Shown in pieces: positions 32,831 through 64,000 of a stretch of 64,000 bases of DNA. Where the stretch lies: positions 124,001 to 188,000 of the forward strand of contig NZ_JBDOQT010000002.1 of NCBI RefSeq assembly GCF_039839785.1. The letters run 5' to 3'. Under the pieces are notes generated by a model that ran no database searches, was not told the origin of the DNA, and worked only from the letters and a program-made list of their open reading frames with translations. A program made the position numbers and the translations under genes. Origin of the DNA: Pelagibius sp. CAU 1746 (GTDB lineage: Bacteria > Pseudomonadota > Alphaproteobacteria > Kiloniellales > Kiloniellaceae). Numbering within the stretch: the stretch's first letter is position 1; each line of letters opens with the position of its first letter.

Positions 32831-34189
32831 CTAGGGAAACACGCCGATGAAGCGGCCCCAGAGGTAGTGCAGCGGCGAAACGACCGCCAGCCCCAGCACC
32901 GCGAAACACAGCATGACCTTCATAGCCTTGCGCAAGGGCACGCCGAGAAAGGTCAGCCCCACCAGCACCGGCGGCGCCTGATAGGGAAAGGCGAAGATCA
33001 CGAAGGCGGGAACCTGCGCCAGAATAACCGCGTCCAGCGGCCAGCCCAGGCTCTCAGCCATGGACCCGGCCAGCGGCGTGAAGACCGCCGGAATGGCCGG
33101 CAAAGTGGTCACCGTCGCCAGCGCCATGGCGCTCAGTTGCAGGACCGCGTACTTGGCGGCGTCGGGCAGGCCGGCGAAGGGAACAGCCGCGGCGGCCTGA
33201 CTCCACAGGAGATCGCCCAGCCCACTGTGACTGACCACGCCACCGAGCCCGATCGTGCCGGCGGCAAAGAACCAGGGCCCGAAGTTCAGCTTGCCGATGG
33301 CCTGGGGAGGCAACAGGCCGACGCCGGGCAGCAGGCTGGCGACGGCCGCCGCGAGGCCGATCCAGGCCGAGGAGATGCCGTGCAGGCTGTCGGTGGTCCA
33401 GAACGCCAAGGTGACGGCCAGCAGGAAAGCGATCTTCACCTGGTCACGGGTCCAGGGCTCCGGCACGGCAGGCGGCAGGGCGATCCGCCGCTCGCCCGGA
33501 AAGAGGCGCAGCACCAGCAGCGGGATCAGAATGAAGGCGCCGAGGCCCAGCACCGGAAAATTCACCAGCAGGTACTCGCCGTAGGTCAGCGTGCGCCCGT
33601 AGATCGCTTCGGCCGCGCCCATCAGCACCAGGTTGGGCACGTTTGAGGTGAGGATGGTGAAGGCCGGGATCACCGCGCCGAGCACCGCAGCGATGAAGAG
33701 ACCGTGGCGGCGCGGATCGTCTTCGGCGAGCCCCAGGCGGTCGGTCAGGGCGCGCACCAGCGGCGCAAAGATCAGAACCCGGCCCATGGCCGAAGGGATG
33801 AAGAAGGCGAGCAGCAGGCCGGTCGCGGAAATCAACCAGACCAGCGCCGGGTAGGACTTGAGACGCCCCAGCAGGCGATCGAACAGCGCATGGCCCATGT
33901 CGTGGCGGCCGATGACCTCGCTCAATACCATGCCGGCGAAGACCAGCCACACCGCCTTGGACTCGAAGCCGGCCAGCGCCACGTGGTCCGGGGCCAGCCC
34001 GGTCAACAACAGGGCGGCGAAGAAGATCAGCGCGGTCAGCTCCGCCGGAATTGCGAGGGTCGCCCAGAGGAAGGCCGTCAGCACCGCCAGCGCGCCAAGC
34101 GATACCAGCGACGATGCCCCCGCCATCAGGGTGCCGACGAAAACGGCGGCAAGGCCCAACGCAACGATCCTGCTGACTGTCTTCTCCAC
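32831..34189 (-). CDS. SLC13-type permease
   Basis: This 452-aa inner-membrane transporter has about 11-12 hydrophobic segments. Segments shared with the anion:Na+ symporter / ArsB-like superfamily are FAGMVLSEVIGRHDMGHALFDRLL, LLAFFIPSAMGRVLIFAPL, ILTSNVPNLVLMGAAEAI and ALATVTTLPAIPAVFTPLAG. The GTG at 34189 starts before the first segment. The frame stays open 121 codons further, but that part looks non-coding. It converges with the histidine kinase gene. The substrate is unknown. Confidence 0.8.
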   Translation of the reverse strand: MEKTVSRIVALGLAAVFVGTLMAGASSLVSLGALAVLTAFLWATLAIPAELTALIFFAALLLTGLAPDHVALAGFESKAVWLVFAGMVLSEVIGRHDMGHALFDRLLGRLKSYPALVWLISATGLLLAFFIPSAMGRVLIFAPLVRALTDRLGLAEDDPRRHGLFIAAVLGAVIPAFTILTSNVPNLVLMGAAEAIYGRTLTYGEYLLVNFPVLGLGAFILIPLLVLRLFPGERRIALPPAVPEPWTRDQVKIAFLLAVTLAFWTTDSLHGISSAWIGLAAAVASLLPGVGLLPPQAIGKLNFGPWFFAAGTIGLGGVVSHSGLGDLLWSQAAAAVPFAGLPDAAKYAVLQLSAMALATVTTLPAIPAVFTPLAGSMAESLGWPLDAVILAQVPAFVIFAFPYQAPPVLVGLTFLGVPLRKAMKVMLCFAVLGLAVVSPLHYLWGRFIGVFP

Positions 34190-34657
34190 CGCCGCCCCCG
34201 GCCTCTGACCTTTCACGCCAATAACCTCACGCCGCGCGGCACGGGCCCGCCTCCTTCCGGAGGAGACTGTCGTGGACGAAAACTGTCGCGGGATGGCACC
34301 ACTGACACGCGGCCGGCAGCATAGCCAATCCGCCACAGCGCGCCTAGCCGTGTGAATCCGATCTATTTCCAAGACACAGAGCAGATTCACAGGGACGGAG
34401 GATCGCCTTCGGCGATTCCAGCCAGCCCTGATCTGTTCTCGCGGCGAGACGGGCCCGGCAGCGCCTGGATTGCGGCCGCCCGCCGGGCTATGATGGCGCA
34501 AAATCCACGTGGCCAAAGCCACCTCAAATCTCCGTGGCCAACGCCACCTCAAATCTCCGTGGCCAACGCCACCTCAAATCTCCGTGGCCAACGCCACCTC
34601 AAATCTCCGTGGCCAACGCCACCTCGGAGGCTCAGCTTAAAGATTGAGGGGACGGAC
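34190..34657. other. Divergent intergenic region with tandem repeats
   Basis: These 468 bp between the permease and VOC genes hold no convincing gene. Translation through them from 34352 gives a low-complexity peptide created by the tandem repeats at 34508-34625. GAGGGGACGGAC before 34658 is the VOC ribosome site. Confidence 0.6.
34508..34625. repeat. Five tandem copies of a 25-bp unit, each with a small hairpin
   Basis: The unit CGTGGCCAACGCCACCTCAAATCTC occurs from 34508. The first copy differs by one base (AAAG for AACG), three copies are exact, and the fifth is cut short at about 34625. Each unit contains GTGGC-CAAC-GCCAC, a perfect 5-bp inverted repeat with a 4-nt loop. The array ends about 33 bp before the VOC gene start and would be in its leader or promoter. 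Confidence 0.88.
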
Positions 34658-36621: not shown

Positions 36622-36927
36622 GACCGCACGGATGCGGGGCGCTCGTCGATGGAGTCCCCCTTCCGCACCGCCGGCGCAGGCCACGGCGCCGTCCCCACCG
36701 GGGCCAAGCCGCAGAATTGTCATTTGCGGCCGTTCCCAATTCAATGTTCACTCACCGGCAGGGGACCTAGCGAACGCAGCTTTGCAAACCATAGGGGGTA
36801 GCTGCTCTATACCGTTGTGCCGCGACCGCTATGCCATAGAGGCAGGCGGACCTCCTGACTCGCAACGGCTGGCGTGTTAGTCTTTGACGCTGTACGTGCT
36901 GCGCAACTCGGGTTTGGAGGATGTGGT
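36622..36927. other. Intergenic region upstream of the MNIO operon
   Basis: These 306 bp hold no supported gene. The last part (about 36730-36900) is less GC-rich than its flanks and must contain the promoter of the small cysteine-motif gene and the MNIO gene. GGAGG at 36916-36920 is the ribosome site of the former. Confidence 0.5.
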
Positions 36928-37365
36928 ATGGCTGAAGTCAAACATCGTACAACCAATAGCGTCCGCGTATCCATTCCGATGTCCGTTGCATCGGACATCG
37001 GGCAGTTCAAGAAATCGCTGGGCAGTATCCTCGAAAGGCTCGGTTGCCCGGCCTGTTGTTCGGCGCATGACATCTATTTCGAGATGCAGCGCGACTTCCG
37101 CTTCGACGGAGATCTGGACATCGCTCAAGCGGCCTTCGCACCCAAGCGCTTGGCTGCGGCCTCTGCCCCGGTCGTGTCGGCCAGCCTTTCGCCGAAGCTG
37201 TCCGGCAACATCAAGGAAGTCTTCAAAGCGCTCGACCGCATCGTCGATCTCAGCGCGCATCCGGCCTGCACCTCGGGGGACGACCTCTTCTTGAGGATCG
37301 AGTCCAACTTTCTGATCAACGCGGCCGGACAACTCGACGAGCAGGCTCTCGTCATTGGCCGGTGA
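36928..37365 (+). CDS. Small protein with duplicated CPAC/HPAC motif, candidate MNIO substrate
   Basis: This 145-aa soluble protein has no signal peptide. It contains two related segments. Residues 33-70 have ILERLGCPACCSAHD (Cys40, 43, 44; His47), then an aromatic F-x-F stretch and DLD. Residues 99-142 have ALDRIVDLSAHPACTSGDD (His111, Cys114), then NFLIN and QLD. The start is the ATG at 36928, 7 bases after GGAGG. Its end overlaps the DUF692 (MNIO) gene by 11 bp, so the two proteins are almost certainly made together. MNIO enzymes act on cysteine residues of partner peptides, so this is a plausible substrate, though it could be a metal-binding adaptor. The family was not recognised. Confidence 0.75.
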   Translation: MAEVKHRTTNSVRVSIPMSVASDIGQFKKSLGSILERLGCPACCSAHDIYFEMQRDFRFDGDLDIAQAAFAPKRLAAASAPVVSASLSPKLSGNIKEVFKALDRIVDLSAHPACTSGDDLFLRIESNFLINAAGQLDEQALVIGR

Positions 37366-38815
37366 AGCCGGGTTCCGGCCCCCGCGATTGGGGGCCGGAA
37401 TGGTATACACCCCCGCGCTTCGCTCGTTTTTGCAGGGGCATATCGACCGGTTGGGCGTGCTCGAGATCGAGCCGCAGACGATGTGGCTGGCGGATGACGC
37501 GATCGAAGGACCGTTTCGCGAAAACCCCAGCTTCATCGAGGCGATCTCAGCTCTGCCGGTCGCCAAGCTGATCCACAGCGTCGGCATGCCGCTCGGCGGC
37601 ACGCGGCGGCCGCACCCGGACCAGATCGCCCTCACCCGCGCCACCGCGGAGCGGCTGGACAGTCCCTGGGTGAGCGAGCACCTCAGTGTTGCCGGCACAC
37701 CGCACCGCTCCGCGGGGTTCCTGCTGCCGCCGCTGCAAACCGCGGAAGGCGTCGAGACGGCGGCGGCCAACATCAGGGCCTTCGCGGCAGGTATCGGTCG
37801 TCCCGTCGCGATCGAGACCGGCGTTTCCTATATCGGCCGGAAGCCGTTCGAGATGCCGGATGGCGAATTCGTTGCCGCGGTAGCGGAGGCCGCCGACTGC
37901 GGCATCCTGCTGGACCTGCACAACGTCTACTGCAACGAGCGAAACGGCCGCACGACCCTCGATACCTTCATCGCCGCGCTCCCTCTAGAACGGGTCTGGG
38001 AAGTTCATCTGGCCGGGGGAGATGAGGCGGACGGGGTCTGGCTCGACGCCCATTGCGGGCGGATGCCGCCGGATCTCGCCGCCCGCGCCCGCGACATCGT
38101 CCGGGCTCTGCCCAACCTGGGCGCCATCAACTACGAGATCTACGAGACCTTTCTCGAGAACATGGCGGAGAGCACTCTGGAAGCGATGCTCGACGAACTG
38201 GAAGCCCTTTGGAGCGAGGCCGGGCGCGCGAGCCCGACGGCGCCATGCAGCCGCGCCGCTCAGCGCTGCGGGCCGCCCGAGACGGAAGCGCGCCCTTCCC
38301 CCCGTGCATGGGAGGACGGCATGACCCGGGCCGTCTGGCAGGCGGCGACCGGCCACCACCCCTTCCCCGACGACAGCGGGGCGATGCGGCTCTACGCACG
38401 CTTGGCGCGCAGCTTCCGCGGCTCGATGATGCTGCGGGTGCTTGGCCGCTCCTTGAGGTATCTGATCCTCCGCGAAGCCGATCGCGGCGATAGCATACTG
38501 GAGCGCTACTTCAAGGCGGTGCCGCCGCAGCTCTACGCACACCTCGAGGCAAAGGCATTTCGCGGCTGGTCAGTCCAGGCCGGCATCTCCGACCCGCTGC
38601 TCGAAGCGCTTATGGACTACGACATCGTGATGGTCGACATGCTGGCGGATCCTCGCCCCCGCGAGGTCACCTTCCCCGGCGACCCCCGCCCGGTCTTCGA
38701 AGCGCTTGCGAGGTCCCAACTGCCCGACATGCCCGAGCCGCCCCTATGGGAAATTGAGATCCTGCCCGATCCGGGACAGTCATCCGCCTTCAGGGGGATC
38801 GAGGCAGGGAGCTGA
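37355..38815 (+). CDS. DUF692 (MNIO) family enzyme with a C-terminal extension
   Basis: This 486-aa protein begins with a divergent DUF692 TIM-barrel at about residues 8-285. Likely iron ligands match the MbnB/TglH order: His74 (KLIHSVGMPLGG), Glu108 (VSEHLS), Glu154 (AIETGVSY), Asp187 and Asn190 (LLDLHNVY), His218 (WEVHLAGG), Asp231 and His233 (LDAHCGRM), Glu261 (NYEIYE). The family oxidatively rearranges peptide cysteines (oxazolone/thioamide, cysteine excision, thiooxazole). Residues about 320-486 form a second domain of unknown family with FRGSMMLRVLGRSLRYL and PRPVFEALARSQLP. Separate partner proteins usually do this job. The TTG at 37355 is needed to keep the first barrel strand, and the alternative ATG at 37400 would cut it. 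Confidence 0.82.
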   Translation: MAGEAGFRPPRLGAGMVYTPALRSFLQGHIDRLGVLEIEPQTMWLADDAIEGPFRENPSFIEAISALPVAKLIHSVGMPLGGTRRPHPDQIALTRATAERLDSPWVSEHLSVAGTPHRSAGFLLPPLQTAEGVETAAANIRAFAAGIGRPVAIETGVSYIGRKPFEMPDGEFVAAVAEAADCGILLDLHNVYCNERNGRTTLDTFIAALPLERVWEVHLAGGDEADGVWLDAHCGRMPPDLAARARDIVRALPNLGAINYEIYETFLENMAESTLEAMLDELEALWSEAGRASPTAPCSRAAQRCGPPETEARPSPRAWEDGMTRAVWQAATGHHPFPDDSGAMRLYARLARSFRGSMMLRVLGRSLRYLILREADRGDSILERYFKAVPPQLYAHLEAKAFRGWSVQAGISDPLLEALMDYDIVMVDMLADPRPREVTFPGDPRPVFEALARSQLPDMPEPPLWEIEILPDPGQSSAFRGIEAGS

Positions 38816-38835: not shown

Positions 38836-40845
38836 TCAGTCGTGCAGGCTGCGCCATGGGGGAAAGTCCAAGAGGGCCGTCGTTCCGACGTCGGGCGTGC
38901 TTCTCAAAGAGAGTTCGGCGCCATGGAGTGCCGCCAACTTCTGCACCAGCGGCAGGCCCAGCCCAGTGCCGTCATCGGCCTGATTGCCTTCCTTGTGCAC
39001 CTGGCCGAAGAGCTCCATCGCGGTCTCCAGTTCCTTATCGGTCATGCCGATTCCAGTGTCGGACACCGCGAACCTTATGCCGCCGTCGTCCCGCCTGCTG
39101 GCGGCCAACCGAACCTCCCCCCCGGGCGGGGTAAACTTCACCGCGTTGTTCGATAGATTGGTCAGCATCTGGACGACCATCCGGCGGTCGCCGCGGAAGG
39201 CCAGCCCCATTGCGGGAATATCGCCGCGCAAGGTAACGCCGCGCCGTTGAGCCAGGCCGGCGACGAAGGATAGAGCCTGGCCGCCAACCACCTCCGCGAG
39301 GACCGGGTCGTCGGCGATCTCCCAGTCTTCCGATTCCGCTTTGGAGATATCGAGAACGTCCTCGATAAGGTCGAGCAGGTGTTTTCCCGACCTGCGGATA
39401 TCCGCGATGTAGCCCCTCTGCCTGTCGCCGAGCGGTCCGATATAGCCGCGCTCCAGCGCTTCGGCGAAGCCGATCACAGCATTGAGCGGCGTCCGGAGCT
39501 CATGGCTGACATTGGCGAGGAACCGCGACTTGGCGTGATTGGCACTCTCCGCCTCCTCCTTGGCCTTACGCAGCTCCACCTCGATGCGGCGGCGCGTATG
39601 CACCTCTTCCTCAAGATGGCGCCGCTCGATCATGGTTTCCCTGAAGGCCAGGATGGCCTGGGTCATAATGCCGATCTCGTCCCGGTGCGCCGACGCCGGA
39701 ATCTCGATGTCTCCGTCTCCGGCGGCAAGGCGGTCGAAGGCCAGGGTCACTCTCTCAATCGGGCGGACGACGCGATAGGTAACGAACATCAGACCAGCCG
39801 CGCCGAGAAGGGTCGCGGCGATCAGCATTAGGAACTCCATCTGCGCGCCGACAAGCGATTGAGCTGAGAGTCGGCTGGCCTGTTTCTGGCTGACCAGGGA
39901 AGCGACGCGCTGGAGTTCGACCGCCTCGGCGATAACCGCCGTCGTGGCGTCGAACCACGGCCTCGCAGCGGCCGGGCGAACGCTTCTATCGACAAGCAGT
40001 GACTGGAGTTCCCTTCTCTGCCGTGCCAGTTCGTCGCGATAGGCTTTCTGCACCCGCCGCAAGGCATCCACGAACTCCGGATCGAGGCCCTGTGCCTCAC
40101 CGATCCTGTCGACAACGAGCAGCACGCTCTCGATCCTGCCGCGGTAGTGCCCGATTTGCTCGAGTTCCTCGGCAGTAGCGGGCCGTCCCGCGGCGATGAT
40201 GCCGCTGATCAATCCGCGCTCTCGCCCGGCAAATTCGCTCAGGTCCCAAGCGGCCGCGCGGGCTCGCATGGCGCGGACCAGATCGCTGTCTCGGTCGACC
40301 TTGTCGCGCAAGGCGAAGCTCAACTGACGCGCAGCCATGATAAGCTCCGTCATCGACGCGAACCAAACCTCGGCCTTCGCCGCCGCCTTGTCGGGGGAAC
40401 GGTCGATATGCCCTGCGGCCTCGCGGCGCAACTCCTCGACCGCGGCATAGGCCGACAGCATTCGGTCGACAAACCCGGCGGCATCGCTTCGCAGCAGGTC
40501 CGAACCTGCGTGCTCGCGAAAATGAGCGATGACCTGGCTTCCCTCGCGCCGCCGTATGCCGATCTGTCTTTCCTCTTCTGAAGTCGGCGCCCGACCGGAT
40601 TGCAGCGCCGTAAAGACGAGCCCGCGCTCGAAGGCCCAGTTCACCGACGCCTTCATCAGAAGATCGGTACAGTCCGTGATGGTCGCCGCCGTGCTCGCGT
40701 CCTTGAACCGGCCCAAGGCGTCGCTGAAGCGCTGAACGGTGGCGATAACCAGCAAGGAGGCAAGCAGACCGATGCCCGCGAAGAGCGCCAGGCGGATGGT
40801 GATGCACCTCTTGCTTCCATCGAGCGGTGGCAATGCGATCGTCAT
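38836..40845 (-). CDS. Membrane sensor histidine kinase with NIT-like sensor
   Basis: This 669-aa protein has TM1 near residues 16-36, a roughly 300-residue helical periplasmic sensor resembling NIT domains (VNWAFERGLVFTAL; EFAGRERGLISGII), TM2 about 335-358 and HAMP. A coiled-coil linker, HisKA with His448 in NVSHELRTPLNAVIGFAE, and HATPase_c (NLSNNAVKFTPPGG, VSDTGIGM, GTGLGLPL) follow. The sensor shares motifs with the chemoreceptor encoded 140 bp upstream on the same strand, suggesting one stimulus for both. No response regulator is adjacent. Confidence 0.88.
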   Translation of the reverse strand: MTIALPPLDGSKRCITIRLALFAGIGLLASLLVIATVQRFSDALGRFKDASTAATITDCTDLLMKASVNWAFERGLVFTALQSGRAPTSEEERQIGIRRREGSQVIAHFREHAGSDLLRSDAAGFVDRMLSAYAAVEELRREAAGHIDRSPDKAAAKAEVWFASMTELIMAARQLSFALRDKVDRDSDLVRAMRARAAAWDLSEFAGRERGLISGIIAAGRPATAEELEQIGHYRGRIESVLLVVDRIGEAQGLDPEFVDALRRVQKAYRDELARQRRELQSLLVDRSVRPAAARPWFDATTAVIAEAVELQRVASLVSQKQASRLSAQSLVGAQMEFLMLIAATLLGAAGLMFVTYRVVRPIERVTLAFDRLAAGDGDIEIPASAHRDEIGIMTQAILAFRETMIERRHLEEEVHTRRRIEVELRKAKEEAESANHAKSRFLANVSHELRTPLNAVIGFAEALERGYIGPLGDRQRGYIADIRRSGKHLLDLIEDVLDISKAESEDWEIADDPVLAEVVGGQALSFVAGLAQRRGVTLRGDIPAMGLAFRGDRRMVVQMLTNLSNNAVKFTPPGGEVRLAASRRDDGGIRFAVSDTGIGMTDKELETAMELFGQVHKEGNQADDGTGLGLPLVQKLAALHGAELSLRSTPDVGTTALLDFPPWRSLHD

Positions 40846-40985: not shown

Positions 40986-43088
40986 TTAGGCCGAACGCAC
41001 CTCCGTCAGGAAATCGTCGACCTTGCCGCGCAGCGCATCGGCTTGGCTCGACAGGTTCCGCACCGCCGACAGCATCTGCTCCGAGGCCGCACCAGTCTGC
41101 TGAGCCCCCTGGCTGACGCCGGAGATGTTCTGCGTGACCTCCTGCGTACCATTGGCCGCTTCCTGGACGTTGCGCGAAATCTCGCTGGTGGCGGCGATCT
41201 GCTCCTCAACCGCGGAGGCGATGGATGCCGCGACCTCGTCGATCCTGCGGATCGTCGAGCCGATAATGTCGATGGCGCCGACGGCCTCCTTGGTTTCCGA
41301 CTGGACCCGGGCGATATGCTCGCCGATCTCGCCCGTCGCCTTGGCGGTCTGATTGGCCAAGGACTTGACTTCCTGGGCGACCACGGCGAAACCCTTCCCG
41401 GCCTCACCCGCACGCGCCGCCTCGATCGTGGCATTGAGCGCGAGCAGGTTGGTCTGCTCGGCGATATCCTGGATCAGATCGATTACCGTGCCGATCTTCT
41501 CCGCAGCCTCGGCGAGCCCCTGAACCTGCTGGTTGGCGCGCGCCACTTCGTCGACGGCAGAGCGCGCCATCTTGGTGGACTCCGAAACCTGGGAACCGAT
41601 CTCCTGGCTGGAACTGCTCAGTTCTTCGGTCGCCGAGGAAACGGTCTGGACGTTGGCCGCCGACTGCTGCGCCGCAGACGCGACGGCACCCGACTGCTGA
41701 CTGGTTTCTTCGGCCACCGCGCTCATGGACTGGGCGGTGCTCTCCAGTTCCGTGCTGGCGGAGGTCACCGCCTCCACCACCGCACCAACATCCGCACTGA
41801 ACTTGTCGGCCAGTTCGTTCATGGTGCGGCGCTTGTCTTCCTCGGCACGCTTTTCGGCTTCCTGCTGCTCCTCGCGCAGGCGCTCCGTCTCCAAGGCGTT
41901 GTCCTTAAAGACCTGCACCGATTGCGCCATCTCGCCGATCTCGTCCTTGCGCGAGGTCCCGGGGATCTCCGCCCTCAGGTCGCCGCCGGCAAGCTGAGTC
42001 ATAGCCGACGTCATCGCCTGGATCGGCTTTGCCACGCGCCAGACCGCCACCCAGATGGCCGAAGCTCCGATAGCCAGGCAGGCGAGCAGCAGAGCGATGT
42101 CGAACAGGAAGGATTGTTGACCGTCACTGGCGGAACGGGCGGCGAAATCCGCAGCGACATCGCTGGCGGTCTTGCCGAGGGCGCTCAACTGGTCGATCGC
42201 CGCCGTCGCTTCGGCGATCCAGGCGGCGCCGTCCACGGGGTAGTCGCTGCCGGCGAGCCCGGCTTGATAGACCCCCTGCCGCACGGCCTCGTAGGATTGA
42301 AAGAACTTACGGTCGACCTGCGCGGCATCCCCCTTGATGAGGGGCGAAGCATGCTCCGAAGCCAGGTAAGTCTGAACCTGGCTCCAGGCCTGCTCGAGGC
42401 GTCCGCGGAAGTTGGCCAGACGCTCCAAGGATTCCAGCGTGATCGTCGAGTTGGAGTCGATGATACCGCCGATCACAGCACGCTCACGCCCGGCGTACTC
42501 GCTCATGACCCACAACGCCTGTTTCAGGTCGCGCAGCATCTGGATCTGTGAGGCGATTGTCTGCGGACGGAACTGACTGACCTGGCGCAGGTGCTGCGAG
42601 GACATGATCAGGCTCGTGATCGTCGGCACCCAGTTCCCGCTCACTGCTTCGTCGCGCGCCGTCCTCGGCTGGCGCAAGGCCTCATCCACATCCTTGCGGA
42701 AGCGGACGACCTGCTGGTAGGCGCTGTTCACCTGACCGATCAAGTCAGCCTTGCCCGGAAAGTCCGGTTCGGCCTGCAGTTCTTCCAGGGCAGCGGTAAA
42801 GGCCTGTTCGGCCGCCCGGCGGCGCTGGTCGATGGCGGTGCGGCGCTCGGAGGTGAGCGGCTGCGGCGAAGCCAGGGCGGCGTTGGTGATACCGCGCTCG
42901 ACGGCCCAATTGCTGGCGCTTTCCAGGAACAGATCCGCGGTGCGGTTGTTCGACTCGACCAGTTGAGACTCGCTCATCTGACGCCAGGCGTCCAAAGCGC
43001 TGCCACTCGTCAGAGCGACCACGATGCATACCAGCAACGCACTGACGGCAATCAGGCTGCCGCGAATTGTGAAACGAAACTTGGGCAT
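40986..43088 (-). CDS. Methyl-accepting chemotaxis protein with NIT-like sensor
   Basis: This 700-aa chemoreceptor has TM1 at about residues 10-32, a helical periplasmic sensor ([28 protein letters not shown]), TM2 about 328-350, and HAMP ([20 protein letters not shown]). The cytoplasmic signalling hairpin tip is [20 protein letters not shown], followed by [16 protein letters not shown]. Heptad-rich methylation helices flank the tip. No che operon is in the window. The sensor is related to that of the kinase downstream. Confidence 0.92.
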
Positions 43089-49893: not shown

Positions 49894-50719
49894 GGACGGC
49901 TGGATCACGATTTCCTAGGTGCTACACTGACCCGGCCCGGCGGCCTGACCTGCCTGGTGTTGCGGCTGGATCACGATTTCCTAGGTGCTACACTTAAAAT
50001 CGACAAGATCAATGCCGGCATCAAGTTGCGGCTGGATCACGATTTCCTAGGTGCTACACTATGCGGCCCCGGCTCATGAGGCGATCCTGTGTTGCGGCTG
50101 GATCACGATTTCCTAGGTGCTACACTTCTTCGTCATGAGGGGTCCTCCTCGAAGTAGTTGCGGCTGGATCACGATTTCCTAGGTGCTACACTGCTACGCT
50201 GTGTTTGCACAACAATTCGGACGTTGCGGCTGGATCACGATTTCCTAGGTGCTACACTGTGGGGCGCAAAACCCCAAGGTTCACCAAAGTTGCGGCTGGA
50301 TCACGATTTCCTAGGTGCTACACTCCAGCAGGCCGCGCCCCAGCCGCGATAGATGTTGCGGCTGGATCACGATTTCCTAGGTGCTACACTTGTGTGTCGG
50401 TCATTTGCTCTTGGCCTTTAGTTGCGGCTGGATCACGATTTCCTAGGTGCTACACTCGGACGGCTGGCCGCCCCTCGTATCGCTGCGTTGCGGCTGGATC
50501 ACGATTTCCTAGGTGCTACACTCCTTACCGGTGTCTCCAACGTCGTCAACACGTTGCGGCTGGATCACGATTTCCTAGGTGCTACACTCGAGTCGCCGAG
50601 CCCCAGTTCCGCCGTCAGTTGCGGCTGGATCACGATTTCCTAGGTGCTACACTAGTGGATCTCAACGCGGGCACGAAGGGGTAGTTGCGGCTGGATCACG
50701 ATTTCCTAGGTGCTACACT
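49893..50719 (+). CRISPR. Type II-C CRISPR array, 13 repeats and 12 spacers
   Basis: Thirteen 36-bp repeats start at 49893, 49959, 50025, 50091, 50157, 50223, 50289, 50355, 50421, 50487, 50553, 50618 and 50684. Spacers are 30 bp except spacer 11 (50589-50617, 29 bp). The repeat starts GTTGCGGCTGG and ends GTGCTACACT, as in Neisseria-type II-C repeats, which sets crRNA orientation to +. Twelve repeats look identical. The first (49893-49928) differs at positions 2-4 and may be the leader-distal end. The closing TGCTACACT resembles an extended -10 element, as in Neisseria repeats that carry their own promoters. Confidence 0.97.
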
Positions 50720-50721
50720 CC

Positions 50722-50765
50722 GCAACCGCTCAATTCCTTGAAAATAAAGGGAATTGAGCGGTTGC
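50722..50765. terminator. Perfect 16-bp hairpin between the array and cas2
   Basis: GCAACCGCTCAATTCC at 50722-50737 and its exact complement at 50750-50765 enclose a 12-nt AT-rich loop. It begins 2 bp after the last repeat and lies 27 bp beyond the cas2 stop, where crRNA and cas transcripts converge. Neither side has a T-run, so it is not a textbook terminator. A double-sided transcription or RNA-processing barrier is likely. Confidence 0.6.
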
Positions 50766-50792
50766 TGTTCATGCCTAAATGCGCCGTGATGA

Positions 50793-51146
50793 CTAGAAAA
50801 GAGCAAGTTGGCCAGGATTTTTCCGGTTTTCCGCACGAGCTTTGCCGGTAAATCGAATAATATTCTCGTATTGCTTGTCCGTGAAGGCAAGGATGTGAAC
50901 CTTGCCGAACTCAGGCAGGTTTTGCTCAATTCGGCGCGAGAATGTTTCCATCTGTTCCCTCCCGCTGCAGAATCGCAGGTATATCGAGAACTGGCTCATC
51001 TCGAATCCCTGATCGAGAAGGAACTCCCGGAATTTGGCGGCGGCCTTGCCCCGTTCCTTAGTATCCACCGGCAGGTCGAACATCACCATTGTCCACATGA
51101 GTCGGTACCCGCACAAATATCCGCCGTCCAACGTTCTAGCCGTCAT
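50793..51146 (-). CDS. cas2: CRISPR-associated endonuclease Cas2
   Basis: This 117-aa ferredoxin-fold protein forms the Cas1-Cas2 spacer integrase. The core MWTMVMFDLPVDTKERGKAA (metal Asp in FDLP), FREFLLDQGFEMSQFSIYLRFC and VHILAFTDKQYENIIRF is typical of type II-C Cas2. The ATG at 51146 overlaps the cas1 stop (ATGA), which fixes the start. An upstream in-frame ATG at 51188 lies inside cas1 and is not needed. It is the last gene of the cas9-cas1-cas2 operon. Confidence 0.95.
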   Translation of the reverse strand: MTARTLDGGYLCGYRLMWTMVMFDLPVDTKERGKAAAKFREFLLDQGFEMSQFSIYLRFCSGREQMETFSRRIEQNLPEFGKVHILAFTDKQYENIIRFTGKARAENRKNPGQLALF

Positions 51147-52078
51147 TCGCAATGCCTGCGGTCCGGCAGGGCGCCAAGATCGAGCCATCTAGGCGGCAAC
51201 GGGAGATCCAGCAAGACCTTCCCATTCTCGAAGGACTGCCCGAGTGTGGTCGCAAGGCTCTGGATGCAAACAGCAAGGGGGCTCATCCCTTTTTGCGTTG
51301 GAACATCCAACGCGATTAAAGAAACCAACGCCTCCTTGACTTCGGGCGTGACCTCGATGTCCCCCTGCGCCTGCAAGCGCTTCACACAGATGTCTACGAA
51401 GGGCCGGAAAGGTTCCATCAGATCGTCGGCCAGGGCCATATCATTGCCTCTGTTGTGATGGTGCAAGCCTATGGTCGGATGCAGACCTGCTGCGATGACC
51501 GCGCGAGCCATAACAGCCCGCATGACTGTATAGCCGTAGTTCAACATGGCGTTCGGTGCCGCGCCCGCCCGGTCGCGGCGGAACCCCTCTCCAAAGAGCA
51601 ACGGCCAATACCGTCTGGCCGCTTGGGCTTCCACGTTCTCCGGGTCGCCGGAACGGACTTTTGCAGCCAAGGCGGCCACACCTCCCGACCGCGCGCCCAC
51701 GGCATCCAGAATTGCCGCTTGGTTCTCGATCTTCGCTGTCACTATGCGGCGCCAAAGCTGCTTTTGCAGCGGCTTTCCAGCACGCCATTGCGCGCGCATA
51801 CGGGCACCCTGCCGGTGATGGCCGCTCAAGGCCCAAACGATGGATACTGGCGCATGATTGCGTCCGCACACGACGAGACAGCAGTTTCTCTCCGCAAGAG
51901 CCACCAAGAGGTTATTCGAGTAGGTGATGCCATGGGCATGGACCACAACTGCGGCGATGTCGTCCAGTGGGATGCGGCCAACTTCCTGACCGCGTTCCTC
52001 CACCTTCAAAAACCCACGATAGGCCGAAAGATGGCGGCCATCGGTAGCGATATCGACAACTCGGTCCATGACCTCCAC
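51143..52078 (-). CDS. cas1: CRISPR-associated endonuclease Cas1 (type II)
   Basis: This 311-aa integrase subunit has metal ligands in ENVEAQAARRYW (Glu), GLHHHN (His) and LADDLMEPFRPFVD (Asp), in the order of active Cas1. The N-terminal beta domain opens DRVVDIATDGRHLSAYRGFLKV. It starts with GTG at 52078, 12 bp after the cas9 stop. An ATG three codons later at 52069 is an alternative. Its stop overlaps the cas2 start by 4 bp. Confidence 0.96.
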   Translation of the reverse strand: MEVMDRVVDIATDGRHLSAYRGFLKVEERGQEVGRIPLDDIAAVVVHAHGITYSNNLLVALAERNCCLVVCGRNHAPVSIVWALSGHHRQGARMRAQWRAGKPLQKQLWRRIVTAKIENQAAILDAVGARSGGVAALAAKVRSGDPENVEAQAARRYWPLLFGEGFRRDRAGAAPNAMLNYGYTVMRAVMARAVIAAGLHPTIGLHHHNRGNDMALADDLMEPFRPFVDICVKRLQAQGDIEVTPEVKEALVSLIALDVPTQKGMSPLAVCIQSLATTLGQSFENGKVLLDLPLPPRWLDLGALPDRRHCE

Positions 52079-52090
52079 GCCCGGTGCGTA

Positions 52091-55000
52091 TCAGCTCTGG
52101 CGACGCGGACCGGGATCGAATACTCGGCCGGATTCGTCGACGCGCACCTGCCGCGCGCACAACTTCTTCAAGCCTGACGCGGAAGTGTTGATATATTTGA
52201 AGTAGTCTTCGGCAAGCGGCTTGGCATCACGCGCCTTGAGCTTTCCGGCCTCGTTGTGCGCCGCCAACTGGATGGAGCCGTTAGCCGAGAACTTGACCAC
52301 CCGGTGAATTACCCGATTTGCTCCCGTTTCCGTCGCCAGCAGATCGCCTTTGTGCAACCGTAGAACCTTGCGGGCCGTCGGGGACTGTTCTTTCACTTTC
52401 GAACGCCAGTCCGGCTGGTGCGCCTCGAACATGGAGACCGCTTCACCCGCCCATCGTCCGCCTGGAAGTTCCCACACGTCGAAGCGATAGTTGGCATCGC
52501 CCTTATAGGCCTTGTAGGGCCGGCCGGACTTGTCACGAACAGGGATGACTTTGAGCCGCTCCAACACACGCACCCGGCGCACCCCCTTATAGATGCCGTC
52601 GCGCAACGGGAAGGCCGCCAGGGCGGCGGCAAAACCCTTGCCTGACAGACCCTCGGTCGCGTCCAGCAAGGCTTGCCGCAAACGGGCATCGCGAATCCGA
52701 CCCAAGCCGGCACTGTCCTTGAGGCTATCCAGAGGCACCCGGTGAACGACAAGATGAGCACCGCGCGCGTCCGGCGTACCGGCCAGGCCATAAGCTGTGT
52801 CATTATGCAAGCGGCCGGCCGAGCTGCCGCGCGGATTGACGGACCCCGGCCTCGCGGGGGTGCCGCGGTCAGGCCGGTGCGAGACGACCACGCGCTCCAG
52901 GATCTCGCGCAAAGAGTCGCGAAAACCCTGGAAAGGAACGGGCATGCCATCGACGAGACGCGTCAGGTCCTGCTCCTCTGCGCGCGCCGCGGCGCGTGAA
53001 ATCGCGTTCAGCAAGGCTCGGTCGGTCACGCCGACAACGGCCGCATCGATTGCGTGATGCCGATGGTCGAGGCGGTTCTTCTGATCCTGGCGCTCGACGA
53101 TATTGTGATCGGGCAAGAGGTCGTTGAGGCCCCAGGTACGCCGCAGGAGTTCCGTCAGGCGGCCCGGCGTGACCCAGACCTTCCGGGGATCGCACACCGC
53201 CGTCAGGTATTCCCGCGCAATTCTCGAGAGATACTGCGTGTCGGTCAATTGCCGGTCCAGAAAATCGCGTTCCTCTGTCTCAAAACGCTGCATCGCATCC
53301 GGCCCGAAACGCCATCGCTTGTTGCGCGGAAGCGCAACGAGTCGTTCCAAGTTCTCATCCCAGCCGGGGCGGTGACCAAAGGCCTCGAATGGGGTCCGGT
53401 TGCGTTTTTCCCTATTGGCTCTGCGCAAGCCCACCGTCCTGTTAGCCGCTGAATTGTCCAGCGTGCGGGAGAACGGCAGGATATGGTCGATCTCCACTTC
53501 GCTAGAAAACAGCCGCTCCGGCGAGATCGGTTCGCCCGTGTAGGGGCAGCATCGGTCAAGGGGGTCGGCGGGATTGAGCTCCTCCCAAAGACGCAGTCGC
53601 ATCCGGCTTTCACCCTTGTCGGGCAGATTCAAGTCGGCCAGAATCTGGCGATGACGATCCGCGCGCGCCGTATTGTCCTTGATTGCTTTTTCAGCATCTT
53701 CGAGTTGACGTTTATTCAGTTTCAACGCGCGAGCGAGTTCGACGACGATCTCTGCCGGGTGGCCATGTCGCGCGATCACGGCGTTCATCAGACGCCGCAG
53801 TTGATTGAGCGCGATGTGAACAGTCGGATTGGCGATGCGACCATAGTGGAGTTCCTCAGGATCGTCCGGGTCTCCCGATCCGAAGGCCACGTAACGTTCC
53901 AGCACCCGCCCGTAATAGGGTAAGGCATCGTGGATCACACCGTCGCGAAAGTCCGAGTGGTGGTATCCGGCCAACCTCGCAGCCTCGCTGTAAGCCACGA
54001 CGCCGCGCTCCAGTTCGGCCAAAATTCCCCTTGTGGCAGTTAAACCGAGGTCGCCATGACCATCGGGCAATGTCGCACGAACCACCATGTCAGCCCGGAC
54101 AGCCGGCAAGCCGTGCTGAGCCCCCAACCAGGCAAGCAGCAGTTCCTCCTCTTCTTCCTCCAGAAGTTTTTCCACGATGCCGATCTGCGTTTCGAGTGGC
54201 AGAGCGTACCACCCGGCGCCGAAACGGTCGTCTTTGCCCAGTGCCGCCGCCGTCTCGTCGCCTTTCAATTCATTACGGGTTTCAGACTCGAGATTGAAAC
54301 GACTGCTCGGTGGCAGCTTCAACAGGCGGCGGAGTTGGCCGAAAGTCTGCTTCCGCGTCGTCAAAAGGGCCAGCGCGACCTTGTCTCTCTCGTCCTGGGT
54401 CAGGCCGCGCGACGTCTGGTCCAGGCCGATGATCGTCAGGGTGTTGGCATCTTGGAAAATCCGGCGGCGTTGAAACAGGGGGTGCGCCCGCGGCAGGCGC
54501 TCCTCCTCCGGATTGAAAGTGCATTTGCCGGGGCGCACAGGCTTCAGCCTACGCTGAAAGAAGATGATGTCCCGCAGCTTCTTCCGCGCTTGCTCGGTGA
54601 AGATGTCCGGGTGATGCGGCGCCTGTGCGGCCCAAAGCGCCTCGAACTCCTCCAAGACCATCGCCCGGTCGGGATAGAGTTCATAGGCCATCACCGTCTT
54701 TCCGCTCTCCGTGGATTCGGGCTTGAGGCGAGCGCGGACACTTGCTCCATCCTGTTGCAGCCGGTGCAGGAATTCGCCCAGCGTGCGCGCGCCTTGCGCC
54801 GCCATGGCATCGCGCAGTTTGTTGACGCCCTGCCTGATCTTGCCGCGCTCGTCATCGTCGGCTCTATCGGTCCGACGGTTGGACTTAAAGCCCCGGCGTT
54901 GGTTCAGGTGAAACAAAGCGCGGCCCAAATGGTGCGGTGAAACCGCCGCGTCCAGGGCACTGGCGCGTATTTCATAAGGGTTCAGGCCGGCCAGAGCCTT

Positions 55001-55273
55001 ACGACCAGCCGGATCCTCCGGCATCAATCCAAATCCGACAAGCGCACTGAGCAGCTTTTTTTGGCGACGTAGGTAGCGGTCCCTTCGGCGTCGCATAGAA
55101 CGAGCCGTCCGGCGGGCCACGGCCAGCGAAGTCTTGTCCTTCGGATTGCGGCCGTCGGAAAAAATCCTCACCCCGGCATCCCGGATAGCGACTGGGCACC
55201 CGTCCCCACCCAGATCGAGTATGCACCAGCCGATTGAGTTGGTTCCGAGATCAAGGCCGAGACGATATTCCAT
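52091..55273 (-). CDS. cas9: Cas9 nuclease, type II-C
   Basis: At 1060 aa this is the compact II-C size (Neisseria 1082). RuvC-I has Asp8 (LGLDLGTNSIGW). The Arg-rich bridge helix follows at about 55-80 (RRTARSMRRRRDRYLRRQKK), then REC helices to about 500 and RuvC-II with Glu512 (EIVVELARAL). HNH has Asp596-His597 (VEIDHILPFSRTLD) and Asn620. RuvC-III has His740 and Asp743 (HHAIDA), followed by the PAM-interacting C-terminus. All catalytic residues are present, so the enzyme should cut. The ATG at 55273 follows AGGGATTGA. It leads the cas9-cas1-cas2 operon (II-C, no csn2 or cas4). The tracrRNA is on the opposite strand just upstream. Confidence 0.97.
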   Translation of the reverse strand: MEYRLGLDLGTNSIGWCILDLGGDGCPVAIRDAGVRIFSDGRNPKDKTSLAVARRTARSMRRRRDRYLRRQKKLLSALVGFGLMPEDPAGRKALAGLNPYEIRASALDAAVSPHHLGRALFHLNQRRGFKSNRRTDRADDDERGKIRQGVNKLRDAMAAQGARTLGEFLHRLQQDGASVRARLKPESTESGKTVMAYELYPDRAMVLEEFEALWAAQAPHHPDIFTEQARKKLRDIIFFQRRLKPVRPGKCTFNPEEERLPRAHPLFQRRRIFQDANTLTIIGLDQTSRGLTQDERDKVALALLTTRKQTFGQLRRLLKLPPSSRFNLESETRNELKGDETAAALGKDDRFGAGWYALPLETQIGIVEKLLEEEEEELLLAWLGAQHGLPAVRADMVVRATLPDGHGDLGLTATRGILAELERGVVAYSEAARLAGYHHSDFRDGVIHDALPYYGRVLERYVAFGSGDPDDPEELHYGRIANPTVHIALNQLRRLMNAVIARHGHPAEIVVELARALKLNKRQLEDAEKAIKDNTARADRHRQILADLNLPDKGESRMRLRLWEELNPADPLDRCCPYTGEPISPERLFSSEVEIDHILPFSRTLDNSAANRTVGLRRANREKRNRTPFEAFGHRPGWDENLERLVALPRNKRWRFGPDAMQRFETEERDFLDRQLTDTQYLSRIAREYLTAVCDPRKVWVTPGRLTELLRRTWGLNDLLPDHNIVERQDQKNRLDHRHHAIDAAVVGVTDRALLNAISRAAARAEEQDLTRLVDGMPVPFQGFRDSLREILERVVVSHRPDRGTPARPGSVNPRGSSAGRLHNDTAYGLAGTPDARGAHLVVHRVPLDSLKDSAGLGRIRDARLRQALLDATEGLSGKGFAAALAAFPLRDGIYKGVRRVRVLERLKVIPVRDKSGRPYKAYKGDANYRFDVWELPGGRWAGEAVSMFEAHQPDWRSKVKEQSPTARKVLRLHKGDLLATETGANRVIHRVVKFSANGSIQLAAHNEAGKLKARDAKPLAEDYFKYINTSASGLKKLCARQVRVDESGRVFDPGPRRQS

Positions 55274-55339
55274 CTATCTCAATCCCTGCAGTTTCCCCGT
55301 AGTTATTCAATCGGATGTTGCAGATCGCCATGATCCGTG

Positions 55340-55450
55340 TCAACGTTGCGAGGTAGCATCTAGGAAATCGTGGTCCGGTCGTTAACAAGCCTTTCGCTTC
55401 GGCGATTGGATCGCACAAAATCGAAGGGCAGGCTCCGGCCTGCCCTTTCA
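55340..55450 (+). ncRNA. tracrRNA: tracrRNA
   Basis: The anti-repeat at 55353-55386 pairs with positions 1-33 of the CRISPR repeat. Every difference from perfect complementarity is a G-U wobble, plus one bulged U. It is followed by a nexus-like segment (about 55387-55415, CTTTCGCTTCGGCG and GGATCG) and the terminator at 55424-55447. Direction (+) agrees with the crRNA direction. The exact 5' end is unknown, and no clear promoter could be picked in the about 65 bp shared with the cas9 start. Confidence 0.92.
55424..55447 (+). terminator. tracrRNA terminator hairpin
   Basis: AAGGGCAGGC-TCCG-GCCTGCCCTT is a 10-bp stem with a tetraloop, followed by TCATTCTTT. It forms the 3' end of the tracrRNA. 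Confidence 0.9.
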
Positions 55451-55576
55451 TTCTTTGGAATGGTGTAGCGATCCGGCGGGCTCACTACCGGGAGCCTTAC
55501 GGCTCGGGCCCATACCTTCTCCTGTTAACAAGTATCTTGTTTCCCACGCTTTTGCTCTCGCGACGCGAACCGCGGC

Positions 55577-55634
55577 AAAGCGCCAGATGAAGTTCGACAA
55601 GATGGACGACTGGAAACCGGCGAACTGAGGGCGG
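55577..55634. repeat. 58-bp direct repeat, right copy (phosphatase tail remnant)
   Basis: This is an exact copy of 49836-49893 that encodes the last residues of the acid phosphatase (QMKFDKMDDWKPAN) and its stop, with no gene body before it. It ends at 55634 and is followed by DNA that was probably the original downstream flank of the phosphatase gene. Confidence 0.95.
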
Positions 55635-55678
55635 TTTAACACCCCCTGTTCGAAAAGGCGGGACCGGCCCCAAACGCA

Positions 55679-55711
55679 AACAAGGCCCTGGCGCGCTGAC
55701 GCCAAGGCCTT
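55679..55711. terminator. Terminator beside the tRNA-Met 3' end
   Basis: CAAGGCCCTGGCG and CGCCAAGGCCTTG form a 13-bp stem with one mismatch and a CGCTGA loop. TGTTTTCATT follows on the plus strand. It lies just beyond the CCA end of the tRNA fragment (minus strand), as expected of the original tRNA terminator. Confidence 0.8.
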
Positions 55712-55719
55712 GTTTTCAT

Positions 55720-55769
55720 TGGTAGCGGGAGAGGGACTTGAACCCCCGACACGCGGATTATGATTCCGC
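55720..55769 (-). pseudogene. 3' fragment of tRNA-Met(CAU), island attachment site
   Basis: On the minus strand, this 50-nt fragment holds the anticodon arm (5-bp stem GCGGA/TCCGC with loop ATCATAA, anticodon CAT), variable loop, T arm with TTCAAGT loop, acceptor 3' strand TCCCGCT, A73 and encoded CCA. The D arm and acceptor 5' strand are missing, and unrelated sequence begins at 55770. A 3'-only tRNA copy is the usual footprint of a tyrosine-integrase element. The intact gene should be at the other end of the island, beyond 64 kb. Confidence 0.85.
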
Positions 55770-55918
55770 GGAATCAATAACTTACGTGAAAAATCCTCAT
55801 GCAACATTCTTGCTCTTATCTGCTGAATTGTTGCGATTTGGCTCTGTCGTCAAGAAGGAGTGGATCAGTCTTAGATCAGGGCTTGGTGAACGGCTATCAA
55901 TGAGATCATACTGACGGC

Positions 55919-56152
55919 ATGACAGGTACAATTGTCCAAACTGAAACAACATACACCGATGGTACCACCGATCTGGCTCGCTACATTGTAGGGGAGTCAG
56001 ACCACATCTCCGCCTGCAAGATCGTAATGGACCGCCTCGACGCAGGGTCTGATACGTCTGCGACAGCGATAGAGAATGCATCTGGGGAATTGCTGGCAAA
56101 GTGGGGCGTAGGGCCGGGTGAAGTCAGGCGACTACCCGATAACGAAGCCTAA
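55919..56152 (+). CDS. Small hypothetical protein
   Basis: This possible 77-aa acidic protein (TGTIVQTETTYTDGTTDLARYIVGE...) starts at the first ATG inside the island. It has no recognised domain and no strong ribosome site. Composition looks protein-like, but support is weak. Confidence 0.35.
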   Translation: MTGTIVQTETTYTDGTTDLARYIVGESDHISACKIVMDRLDAGSDTSATAIENASGELLAKWGVGPGEVRRLPDNEA

Positions 56153-56197
56153 CCGCCCCTGAAACCTCTGCTCGCGCAGTAAGCCTCGGCGGTCTTC

Positions 56198-56944
56198 TTA
56201 CCACCTCGGCTCAGGCTGGTATGCCATTTCCGAGACCACCTTTGTAGCATCACCTCTCCGCTGATACTTCCCGAGCAGATCGCCATCGTCTTCATCCGAG
56301 ACCGTCTTTACCCGAAAGAGATGCCACATTTTATCTTGCGTAGGTGATAGGCGGTAGGTCCGACCGTTTTTTCGGCAATACCAGTGCTTAGATTTTCTTA
56401 GCTGAGTCCATTTGCAGTCCGCGCCCGAGAGTAGTCTTTGCTCTCCTGCAACCTGCTCCTGTTCACGCAATTGTCGAAGATACTCTTCCCGCTCGACCCG
56501 AATTCTCTCTTCTTCCCGCTCAATGTGGTCTCGGAGAAGCCCGATGATCGCCGGAAGTTCCGTACCCTGCGTCTTCTCTTGCTCGTAGAGAGCCAGACAG
56601 CCAGCCTGTAGTTCTTCGTTTGGAAGCTCAAAAAAGTGATCTTCTTCCTCGAACGCTCTCAGGCGCTGTTCAACATCTGTGGTTGTAAGCTGCGGCCCAG
56701 GCAAACGGTTGAGAAAATCTCGCAGGTCCTCGACAGGTATCCAGCATGGAACGGCAGCCTTTGCTACGACTTCACGTTGCCCATCCCACTTTGTCCAGAT
56801 CGAGTTCCCGCGATCAATTGCCTTGACGATGTCCCTCGCCAATTTGTGGATGGAATGCGGGTCGCGAAGGTGCCGCAACGATGGGCTCTTGACGTACTCG
56901 AACAGGAGCCTCTTAACATCCCAAATCCGTTCGTCTTCCGCCAT
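56198..56944 (-). CDS. Hypothetical island protein with coiled coil
   Basis: This 248-aa soluble protein has an N-terminal helical part (IWDVKRLLFEYVKSPSLRHLRDPHSIHKLARDIVKA), a charged coiled-coil at about residues 140-175 (HIEREEERIRVEREEYLRQLREQEQ) and a basic C-terminus (KHWYCRKNGRTYRLSPTQDKMWHLFRV). I do not recognise the family. It is on the same strand as the next two genes up to the integrase and may be an accessory gene of the island. Confidence 0.65.
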   Translation of the reverse strand: MAEDERIWDVKRLLFEYVKSPSLRHLRDPHSIHKLARDIVKAIDRGNSIWTKWDGQREVVAKAAVPCWIPVEDLRDFLNRLPGPQLTTTDVEQRLRAFEEEDHFFELPNEELQAGCLALYEQEKTQGTELPAIIGLLRDHIEREEERIRVEREEYLRQLREQEQVAGEQRLLSGADCKWTQLRKSKHWYCRKNGRTYRLSPTQDKMWHLFRVKTVSDEDDGDLLGKYQRRGDATKVVSEMAYQPEPRW

Positions 56945-57077
56945 GACACGCTCTTCGCAAAAAACAAGACAGCAACTTCTAGTGCGATGCTCTTCGCCAC
57001 AGAGCCTCGGGCCAATCCTGTCCGGTTAAGATTTTTTGCGTCTGTTTGCTACTTCTTGGCCGCCTACGCGACCGTAC

Positions 57078-57890
57078 TCACTTTAACAAGTGATCCTTTG
57101 GTGGCCGTATCGGGAAGAGGCCTCCCAGTGTTCGGTTAGCCAGTAGAAGCCGATCGGCAGCATTCTTGTAGTCCGATCGGGTGGGGTTTGGATGCCGGCT
57201 AATGTCGTCTACTCGAAATGGATGACTATCTGCAAAAATCAGTATCCCCCTTATCCCGAATCTCTCTCCATCAGGAAAGCAAAACTCCAGCCGCCATGCG
57301 AAATGTCCTTCGTCATCAACATGTTCTTCTATAACGAGACGATCAAACCAAGCCGGCTCACCTTTTCCTGGGTTTCCAAACACTTCAATGGATTGATCCG
57401 TTATGCGCTGAAGAGCTTGCCTTGCCTTACCTTTGATCTCAGTTCTGCACTCCGAAAAACCAATTGGATTCTCCGCGACTTCTTCAAGGAGCAGGCCGCC
57501 AAATCGCAACCAGAGACTCCCTGTCTGGAGTATCTCATCTGAAACAGAGTACTTGTCGAAGATTCTGACTAGCTCCTGCCGGAGGTGACCAAGACCGAGC
57601 AATTCTGGCACCACCCATGCCATGAGTTGACCCTTCGCAAAGGCAGCATTTATTTGCTCAACAATGCTCAGGACAAATTGGTTGTTCAGCTCATTATGCA
57701 TGAGCCAATCAGCGTAGAGACGAGCATACATCGGCGCCGGCGTTGGTTTATCTCGCTCAATAACTTTGCGGACCAGGCGCATTATCTGCAAACACTGGTC
57801 CCCGTTTAGTTGACCGAAGCCGCCTCGCCTTGAACGGTATTCTTCAATTCGATCCCTTAAAATAGTTCCGGGATGTCTACCAATGGGCAT
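57078..57890 (-). CDS. Hypothetical island protein
   Basis: This 270-aa soluble protein has a helical first half (DQCLQIMRLVRKVIERDKPTPAPMYARLYADWLMHNELNNQFVLSIVEQ) and a strand-rich second half (RLVIEEHVDDEGHFAWRLEFCFPDGERFGIRGILIF). There is no signal peptide or membrane segment and I recognise no family. It precedes the 56198-56944 gene by 133 bp on the same strand, between that gene and the integrase. Confidence 0.65.
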   Translation of the reverse strand: MPIGRHPGTILRDRIEEYRSRRGGFGQLNGDQCLQIMRLVRKVIERDKPTPAPMYARLYADWLMHNELNNQFVLSIVEQINAAFAKGQLMAWVVPELLGLGHLRQELVRIFDKYSVSDEILQTGSLWLRFGGLLLEEVAENPIGFSECRTEIKGKARQALQRITDQSIEVFGNPGKGEPAWFDRLVIEEHVDDEGHFAWRLEFCFPDGERFGIRGILIFADSHPFRVDDISRHPNPTRSDYKNAADRLLLANRTLGGLFPIRPPKDHLLK

Positions 57891-58009
57891 CTTCTTGATC
57901 CAACAGTCGAATGATCTGTTTCTGCAACAGTGAGATGTTTCCGATTAACACTGAACTGAAGAAGCTAAGATGAGCCCAGCAAACTCTTTCTGCAAAGAGG
58001 AATTACATC

Positions 58010-58954: not shown

Positions 58955-59181
58955 TTTAACTTCCTGAATTAATTGATTTATTTTATTATAGCGCTACGAA
59001 CTTGGGCCGTCGGGCGCTTTCCCGCAAGGCGCCGAGAAGTGCCAAAAGGTCAAAGGTTCCTCAAAGTAAGTCCAAGTGATTTTGGTTTTTCATAGATGAT
59101 TGCGGCTCCAACGATGAAAACTCACCATTCTGCAACTCTTCTTGATTATTAATCAGAAATGTTGCACTCCATCATCGCACT

Positions 59182-63802: not shown

Positions 63803-64000
63803 TTACCCCTCCATAGGAACATTGACGTTTCAGCCACGGCCTGATCCACGGTGCCTTTCGTCAGGCCCTTCAACAATGCTTGAAGGGCGCCCCTTTCAGT
63901 TGATTTATAGGTGAAATTAATCACTCATCACGCGATTGAACAAGCGCCAATCTTCATGCTCGTGAACCGCTCCTGAGAACCCTGCAAAGGGACTCAGCCT

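Follow-up and report, generated by a model that had tools for sequence, protein, structure and literature searches.

A candidate two-gene MNIO modification cassette in Pelagibius with an internally duplicated cysteine-motif protein

The window analysed here is a 64,000-nucleotide stretch of the genome of the marine alphaproteobacterium Pelagibius sp. CAU 1746. On its forward strand, a small gene encoding a 145-aa protein is followed directly by the gene for a 486-aa enzyme of the MNIO family (formerly DUF692). The features of this locus are as follows.

36916..36920, + strand: GGAGG, the likely ribosome-binding site of the small gene, 7 bases 5′ of its ATG and also present in Pelagibius marinus
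36928..37365, + strand: small gene, a reading frame for the 145-aa protein, the presumed MNIO substrate, with two homologous units
36961..37122, + strand: unit 1 (residues 12–65), with a strand, an amphipathic segment, the Cys loop, an aromatic stretch and LD
37045..37059, + strand: CPACC motif (residues 40–44), the most likely modification site judging from the sequence and from CPAC as the ChrA-type core motif
37171..37338, + strand: unit 2 (residues 82–137), the copy with a single Cys
37258..37269, + strand: HPAC (residues 111–114), by alignment the equivalent of CPAC in unit 2, with His replacing the first Cys
37355..38815, + strand: gene for the 486-aa MNIO, identified by PF05114, with a TTG start and an 11-bp overlap with the small gene
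38300..38812, + strand: C-terminal extension of the MNIO (residues 316–486, about 170 residues), which falls in no family and is a possible built-in partner domain

The first-pass annotation had reported that the small gene overlaps a DUF692 gene by 11 bp and that no gene for a transporter, a protease or a separate partner lies next to the pair. The overlap follows from the frames 36928–37365 and 37355–38815, and the remark on neighbours is right for those immediately beside the pair. The TTG at 37355 is a plausible, if unproven, start because both the TTG and the overlap recur in P. marinus, and the two genes of the putative MNIO cassette are probably translationally coupled. A simple scan detected no sigma-70-like promoter or intrinsic terminator. 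The two genes upstream are without a Pfam family, and the fourth gene upstream (32831–34552) encodes a CitMHS/Na-sulphate symporter. Downstream lie, both on the − strand, a gene for a histidine kinase that contains a NIT (nitrate and nitrite sensing) domain (38836–40845) and then one for a chemotaxis receptor (40986–43088). Farther along, in the last 14 kb of the window (50001–64000), the G+C content drops from 62–70% to 52–62%.

Both genes are found in the same order in P. marinus (L003), and all four cysteines of the small protein are conserved there. The 145-aa protein is 90% identical between the two organisms, with a dN/dS of 0.063 (0.027 for unit 1 and 0.056 for unit 2), and the MNIO is about 82% identical, with a dN/dS of 0.151; the ratios are rough because the synonymous distances are 0.6 to 1.2, and they, like the trees described below, derive from few, long-branched sequences. 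Both genes are under purifying selection in this comparison, the small protein being the more conserved of the two and slow-evolving along its length. The genes upstream of the pair are common to the window and P. marinus. The pair stays together in P. marinus despite different downstream genes, with neither the histidine kinase gene nor the chemotaxis gene next to it. These two reading frames are a real gene pair.

The first-pass annotation described the 145-aa protein as two related segments, each with an amphipathic helix before the Cys motif and an aromatic strand and LD pair after it, and as having no signal peptide; all of these elements are recovered here. Comparison of residues 1–75 with residues 76–145 gives a score of 62, reached by none of 5000 shuffles (best 49), and BLASTP of residues 10–65 against residues 82–137, segments picked by eye, gives an E-value of 3e-7 at 27% identity. 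Each unit runs from a hydrophobic strand-like stretch through an amphipathic segment, the Cys loop and an aromatic stretch to an LD pair. The segments preceding the loops (residues 24–38 and 92–108) are amphipathic if helical, with moments reached by 114 and 40 of 5000 shuffles, respectively. The loop is CPACCSAHD in unit 1 and HPACTSGDD in unit 2, and the only cysteines in the protein are Cys40, Cys43, Cys44 and Cys114; either unit 2 has lost two of three cysteines or unit 1 has gained them. Judged by hydropathy, no hydrophobic segment is present at the N-terminus, the highest 19-residue Kyte-Doolittle mean being 0.95, at residue 65. Pfam, NCBIfam and PHROGs contain no family that the protein matches.

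The DUF692/MNIO identity proposed for the enzyme holds, with PF05114 (MbnB_TglH_ChrH) scoring 129.8 bits against a cut-off of 25; the match covers residues 72–242 only. Eight positions (H74, H109, E154, D187, N190, H218, D231 and H233) are among the 22 columns that are invariant in an alignment of seven MNIOs, and we take these to be the iron-site positions, from general knowledge of the family and from mapping of motifs to N175, D242 and H244 of HvfB. These three HvfB residues, predicted ligands of site 3, are reported to be required for activity (PMC13419390). Five NCBIfam equivalog models match, all with scores far below their cut-offs, namely BufB (109.8 against 310), the HvfB family (84.2 against 360), ApyH (72.3 against 400), ChrH (NF050165; 40.1 against 600) and MbnB (17.6 against 325), and by that test the enzyme is therefore none of the named maturases.

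In unrooted trees, the 486-aa MNIO, its P. marinus copy and the MNIO of locus L007 (genome G286) are set apart from the other 65 rows with support of 100/98. The grouping with the L007 enzyme has support of 99/90 when TglH and a Streptomyces row (L029) are included and 100/98 when they are excluded, with long branches flagged by the program. These three enzymes have the sequence LDLHN in common, which is also present in the corresponding segment of TglH; the other frames in which an LDxxN pattern was found carry different residues there. Outside the genus, the L007 MNIO is the closest to the Pelagibius enzyme in the genomes searched (34% identity, best match in each direction). L007 (172–1930) is a three-gene cluster of a 77-aa ORF with GCLPCAASGLDEF, the MNIO and an HvfC/DUF2063-like partner. 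As at the Pelagibius locus, a Cys-containing frame thus precedes the MNIO gene, but L007 has in addition a separate partner gene downstream. The partner resembles the DUF2063 family (hhalign P 2e-4, probability 46.5), with matches to the HvfC model (E 3.6e-6) and to DUF2063 (E 0.005) that both fall below cut-off. No family was found for the 77-aa peptide, and it is not demonstrably homologous to the 145-aa protein. A P...SG.D.F pattern and searches with A1, our model of the repeated unit, had hinted at such a relationship, which we have withdrawn. The A1 match in G286 (E 1e-22) is circular because A1 contained the L007 row; once that row is removed, the score of the peptide is −0.0 bits, as against 8.8 to 11.6 for the top five among 5000 shuffles. 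In a pairwise ranking, the 77-aa frame is 189th of 329 frames upstream of MNIOs.

The C-terminal extension of the MNIO, overlooked in the first-pass annotation, is 82% identical in P. marinus. No match to it was found in Pfam (residues 286–486), NCBIfam, PDB sequences or the 288 other genomes of the class. Two candidate relationships found no support: a DUF2063/HvfC-like partner, compared as a profile of 52 partner proteins (hhalign P 0.33, the score being reached by 929 of 3000 shuffles, or 886 with the L007 partner added), and the L007 partner itself (BLASTP E 0.23, hhalign P 0.3). Nor was homology found to the helical bundle of ChrH, DybH or MelH, and the ChrH model leaves the extension unmatched. 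AlphaFold models of the two proteins, built from two-row alignments, have mean pLDDT values of 35.1 and 44.3 and are too poor for use; the model of the enzyme shows helices in the extension, with pLDDT under 50 in that region. According to the excerpted text of a recent study, DybH, an MNIO with a C-terminal bundle, needs no partner, whereas MelH requires its separately encoded bundle (PMC12636315). Since DybH acts partner-free, the ‘missing’ partner of the 486-aa MNIO may, by analogy, be built in, with the extension as a cis partner domain. This positional swap, a separate partner at L007 and the extension in Pelagibius, is suggestive at most. The source genome also encodes a second MNIO (G000:C1:1107599-1108393, L001; PF05114 356.5 bits), which is followed by a DUF2063-like partner (L001_2294); this partner could in principle also serve the 486-aa MNIO.

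The pair is rare and accessory. Two of 61 genomes of the order match A1, both in the genus, where they represent two of the eight genomes, and two of 58 genomes, the source genome included, match the 145-aa protein as query. The upstream gene was found in five of the six genus members that gave no match, and in those five loci neither the small gene nor an MNIO occurs within roughly 1.5 kb on either side of it. Homologues of the small protein without a DUF692 gene, the case named in the first-pass annotation as refuting its proposal, did not appear: both copies found, in the source genome and in P. marinus, overlap the MNIO gene. With the enzyme as query, matches at E 1e-30 come from two of the 289 class genomes (the source genome and G286; P. 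marinus is absent from this sample), and matches at 1e-18 from 37 of 398 genomes of the phylum, the best besides the gene itself being 1.4e-25. Those loci from the best-scoring phylum matches that are in the tree lie across the 100/98 split from the 486-aa MNIO, P. marinus and L007. Among 67 MNIO loci scanned, the window itself not counted, only P. marinus has CPAC in an upstream frame.

Wider searches returned little else. Exact-peptide scans, which reach close relatives only, found no match to the 145-aa protein in plasmids or viral contigs, and a single scan of genome contigs gave one match, P. marinus. A peptide scan found no match to the MNIO in viral contigs; 306 plasmid records match it, none of which reaches 60% identity or spans 80% of the enzyme. 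A1 searches of sets of 240, 79, 61, 299 and 122 genomes gave only weak matches beyond the genus and G286: 18 genomes at E 0.005–0.09 in the set of 240, one at 0.006 in the set of 79, three at 0.007–0.008 in the set of 122 and none in the sets of 61 and 299. By tblastn, no MNIO is present at these loci (L010–L027, L062 and L105–L107). One of them, L106, was picked by A1 itself and contains a 39-aa frame that has the best score (22 bits, E 4e-5) in the background used for the L007 peptide after removal of its row; we regard this as a chance match because no MNIO lies near.

The pair can be compared with three sets of published systems. The first is adjamnio-IV, ten signal-less sequences of 119–146 aa with 5–6 Cys and a CxxCC motif, encoded in the order adjamnio-IV – MNIO, which excerpts of Antoine et al. 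2025 (PMC12452194) list as candidate precursors from sequence analysis. The 145-aa protein agrees in length, in its CxxCC (C40-P-A-C43-C44), in lacking a signal peptide, in being encoded directly upstream of an MNIO and in having no partner gene. It has four Cys rather than 5–6, the comparison being with the published description and not by alignment, and the excerpted text mentions neither an internal duplication nor an MNIO extension for adjamnio-IV. In the text searches of the literature, the term ‘adjamnio’ is confined to that single paper, no paper joins Pelagibius with MNIO, and none of the matches listed combines CPACC with MNIO or DUF692.

ChrH, DybH, ArlH and MelH resemble the Pelagibius pair in their CPAC, which is the core motif of ChrA-type substrates, in the extra C-terminal part of the MNIO and in a minimal cluster of precursor and MNIO (PMC10214503 and PMC12636315, as excerpted). 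For the ChrH subfamily, the available text describes the substrate motif CPxCGxG, an enzyme with a C-terminal helical bundle, large or protein-sized substrates and embedded CPAC motifs (PMC12636315). The differences are that (i) the subfamily motifs are CPxCGxG or CPACGMMM, whereas the 145-aa protein has CPACCSA and HPACTSG and lacks the GxG; (ii) the ChrH model gives the 486-aa MNIO only a small fraction of its cut-off score and (iii) some substrates of these enzymes, as described there, bear signal peptides and the 145-aa protein does not. The bufferin/oxazolin systems (BufBC, HvfBC) also combine an MNIO catalytic domain with cysteines in an upstream-encoded protein, but they feature Sec signal peptides together with a DUF2063-type partner; the Pelagibius pair has no Sec signal, no BufB match above cut-off and no DUF2063 partner gene.

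We regard it as somewhat probable that the locus is a two-gene MNIO modification cassette with the 145-aa protein as its substrate. In MbnB-type enzymes a Cys of the substrate is bound to iron, and a net four-electron oxidation in which Cys takes part is common to the MNIOs characterised first, according to excerpts of PMC11002830 and PMC13419390. CPAC in the presumed substrate, the extension on the enzyme and the lack of an adjacent partner gene are the reasons why we propose modification of CPACC with recognition helped by the extension. The CPACC loop of unit 1 would enter the barrel of the MNIO, where a Cys thiolate would ligate iron, and a four-electron oxidation would follow at Cys40/Cys43, possibly also at Cys44, by analogy with the action of the ChrH subfamily on CPAC. 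The extension would do the work of a separately encoded partner, for instance through contacts with the remainder of the unit. Unit 2, with its HPACTS and single Cys, would be a degenerate copy whose retention reflects a role in recognition or metal binding and not full modification. The modified protein probably stays in the cytosol, since no signal peptide, transporter or protease accompanies the pair, and might most plausibly be metal-binding or redox-active.

The small gene sits at the usual precursor position in MNIO clusters, as expected for a cassette. Against a cassette of this kind, its evolution, slow along the whole protein, is more like that of a working protein than of a leader-core peptide. 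The 145-aa protein might instead be an adaptor, a duplicated partner that handles substrate or iron, with the true MNIO substrate encoded elsewhere in the genome. A length greater than that of most RiPP precursors, the duplication, stronger conservation than the enzyme and the lack of an adjacent partner gene would suit this role; the protein matches no partner family, however, and its conserved CPACC suits a substrate motif, so that we consider an adaptor unlikely. Partner genes, moreover, most often lie 3′ of the MNIO gene (PMC12452194, in the text available), whereas the small gene precedes it. The pair as a plain member of adjamnio-IV, in which duplication and extension may be general, is compatible with a modification cassette and fairly probable: the pair matches the published table as excerpted (PMC12452194) in length, in CxxCC, in lacking a signal peptide and in gene order, against which stands the count of four Cys.

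The CPACC motif itself can be read in more than one way. Metal binding and disulfide formation are frequent at CxxC(C) sites, and the 145-aa protein could be an unmodified metal-binding or redox protein co-expressed with the MNIO, for example for iron delivery or metal sensing. The slow evolution and the lack of export or proteolysis genes beside the small gene fit such a role, but it would leave the MNIO without a substrate in its own operon, and the MNIO gene overlaps the small gene in both copies found; we consider it quite unlikely. For modification by the MNIO speaks the analogy of CPAC and CxxCC with core or candidate substrate motifs (PMC12452194, PMC10214503 and PMC12636315, each as excerpted). 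Against it count the small number of copies (two), the missing GxG after CPAC, the ChrH score of 40.1 against 600 and an extension without homology, as well as excerpted reports that the residue targeted by some MNIOs is Asp or Asn and not Cys (PMC12636315, PMC11002830).

The suggestion of a possible new RiPP-like system thus holds in part: the locus is best read as a precursor/MNIO pair, and the duplicated, signal-less protein is real, but ‘new’ is too strong because adjamnio-IV (PMC12452194) and the features of the ChrH subfamily (PMC12636315) are already published, as far as the excerpts of both papers go. The pair seems to be a rare variant within a class of peptide-modification systems that was described recently, and not something wholly new. 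More speculatively, and improbably in our estimate, it could represent a separate MNIO branch acting on one half of a duplicated, folded cytosolic protein with the help of a cis-fused partner, the other half, with two of three Cys lost, being docking or regulatory; the product of CPACC, in which a third Cys takes the place of the Gly of CPACG, may then be undescribed. If the cassette proposal is true, this would be a very small MNIO system, with two genes, no separate partner and a substrate that remains a protein. The two halves, CPACCS and HPACTS on related scaffolds, would constitute a natural experiment on MNIO substrate requirements, and the extension a natural test of cis-fused partner function, comparable to the partner fusion in cis engineered for HvfBC (PMC13419390, in the text available).

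Two other MNIO loci are of separate interest. On a plasmid of Streptomyces sp. NBC_01527 (L029, 1693–6870), an MNIO gene lies near that of a 56-aa Cys-containing hypothetical protein, in a stretch that also encodes an FAD/NAD(P)-binding protein, a 2OG-Fe(II) oxygenase and an ABC transporter; this may be a separate RiPP cluster. On an IMG/VR contig from the viral collection (L067, 706–3699), an MNIO gene directly follows a 665-aa frame with two CAGQGGC motifs near its end.
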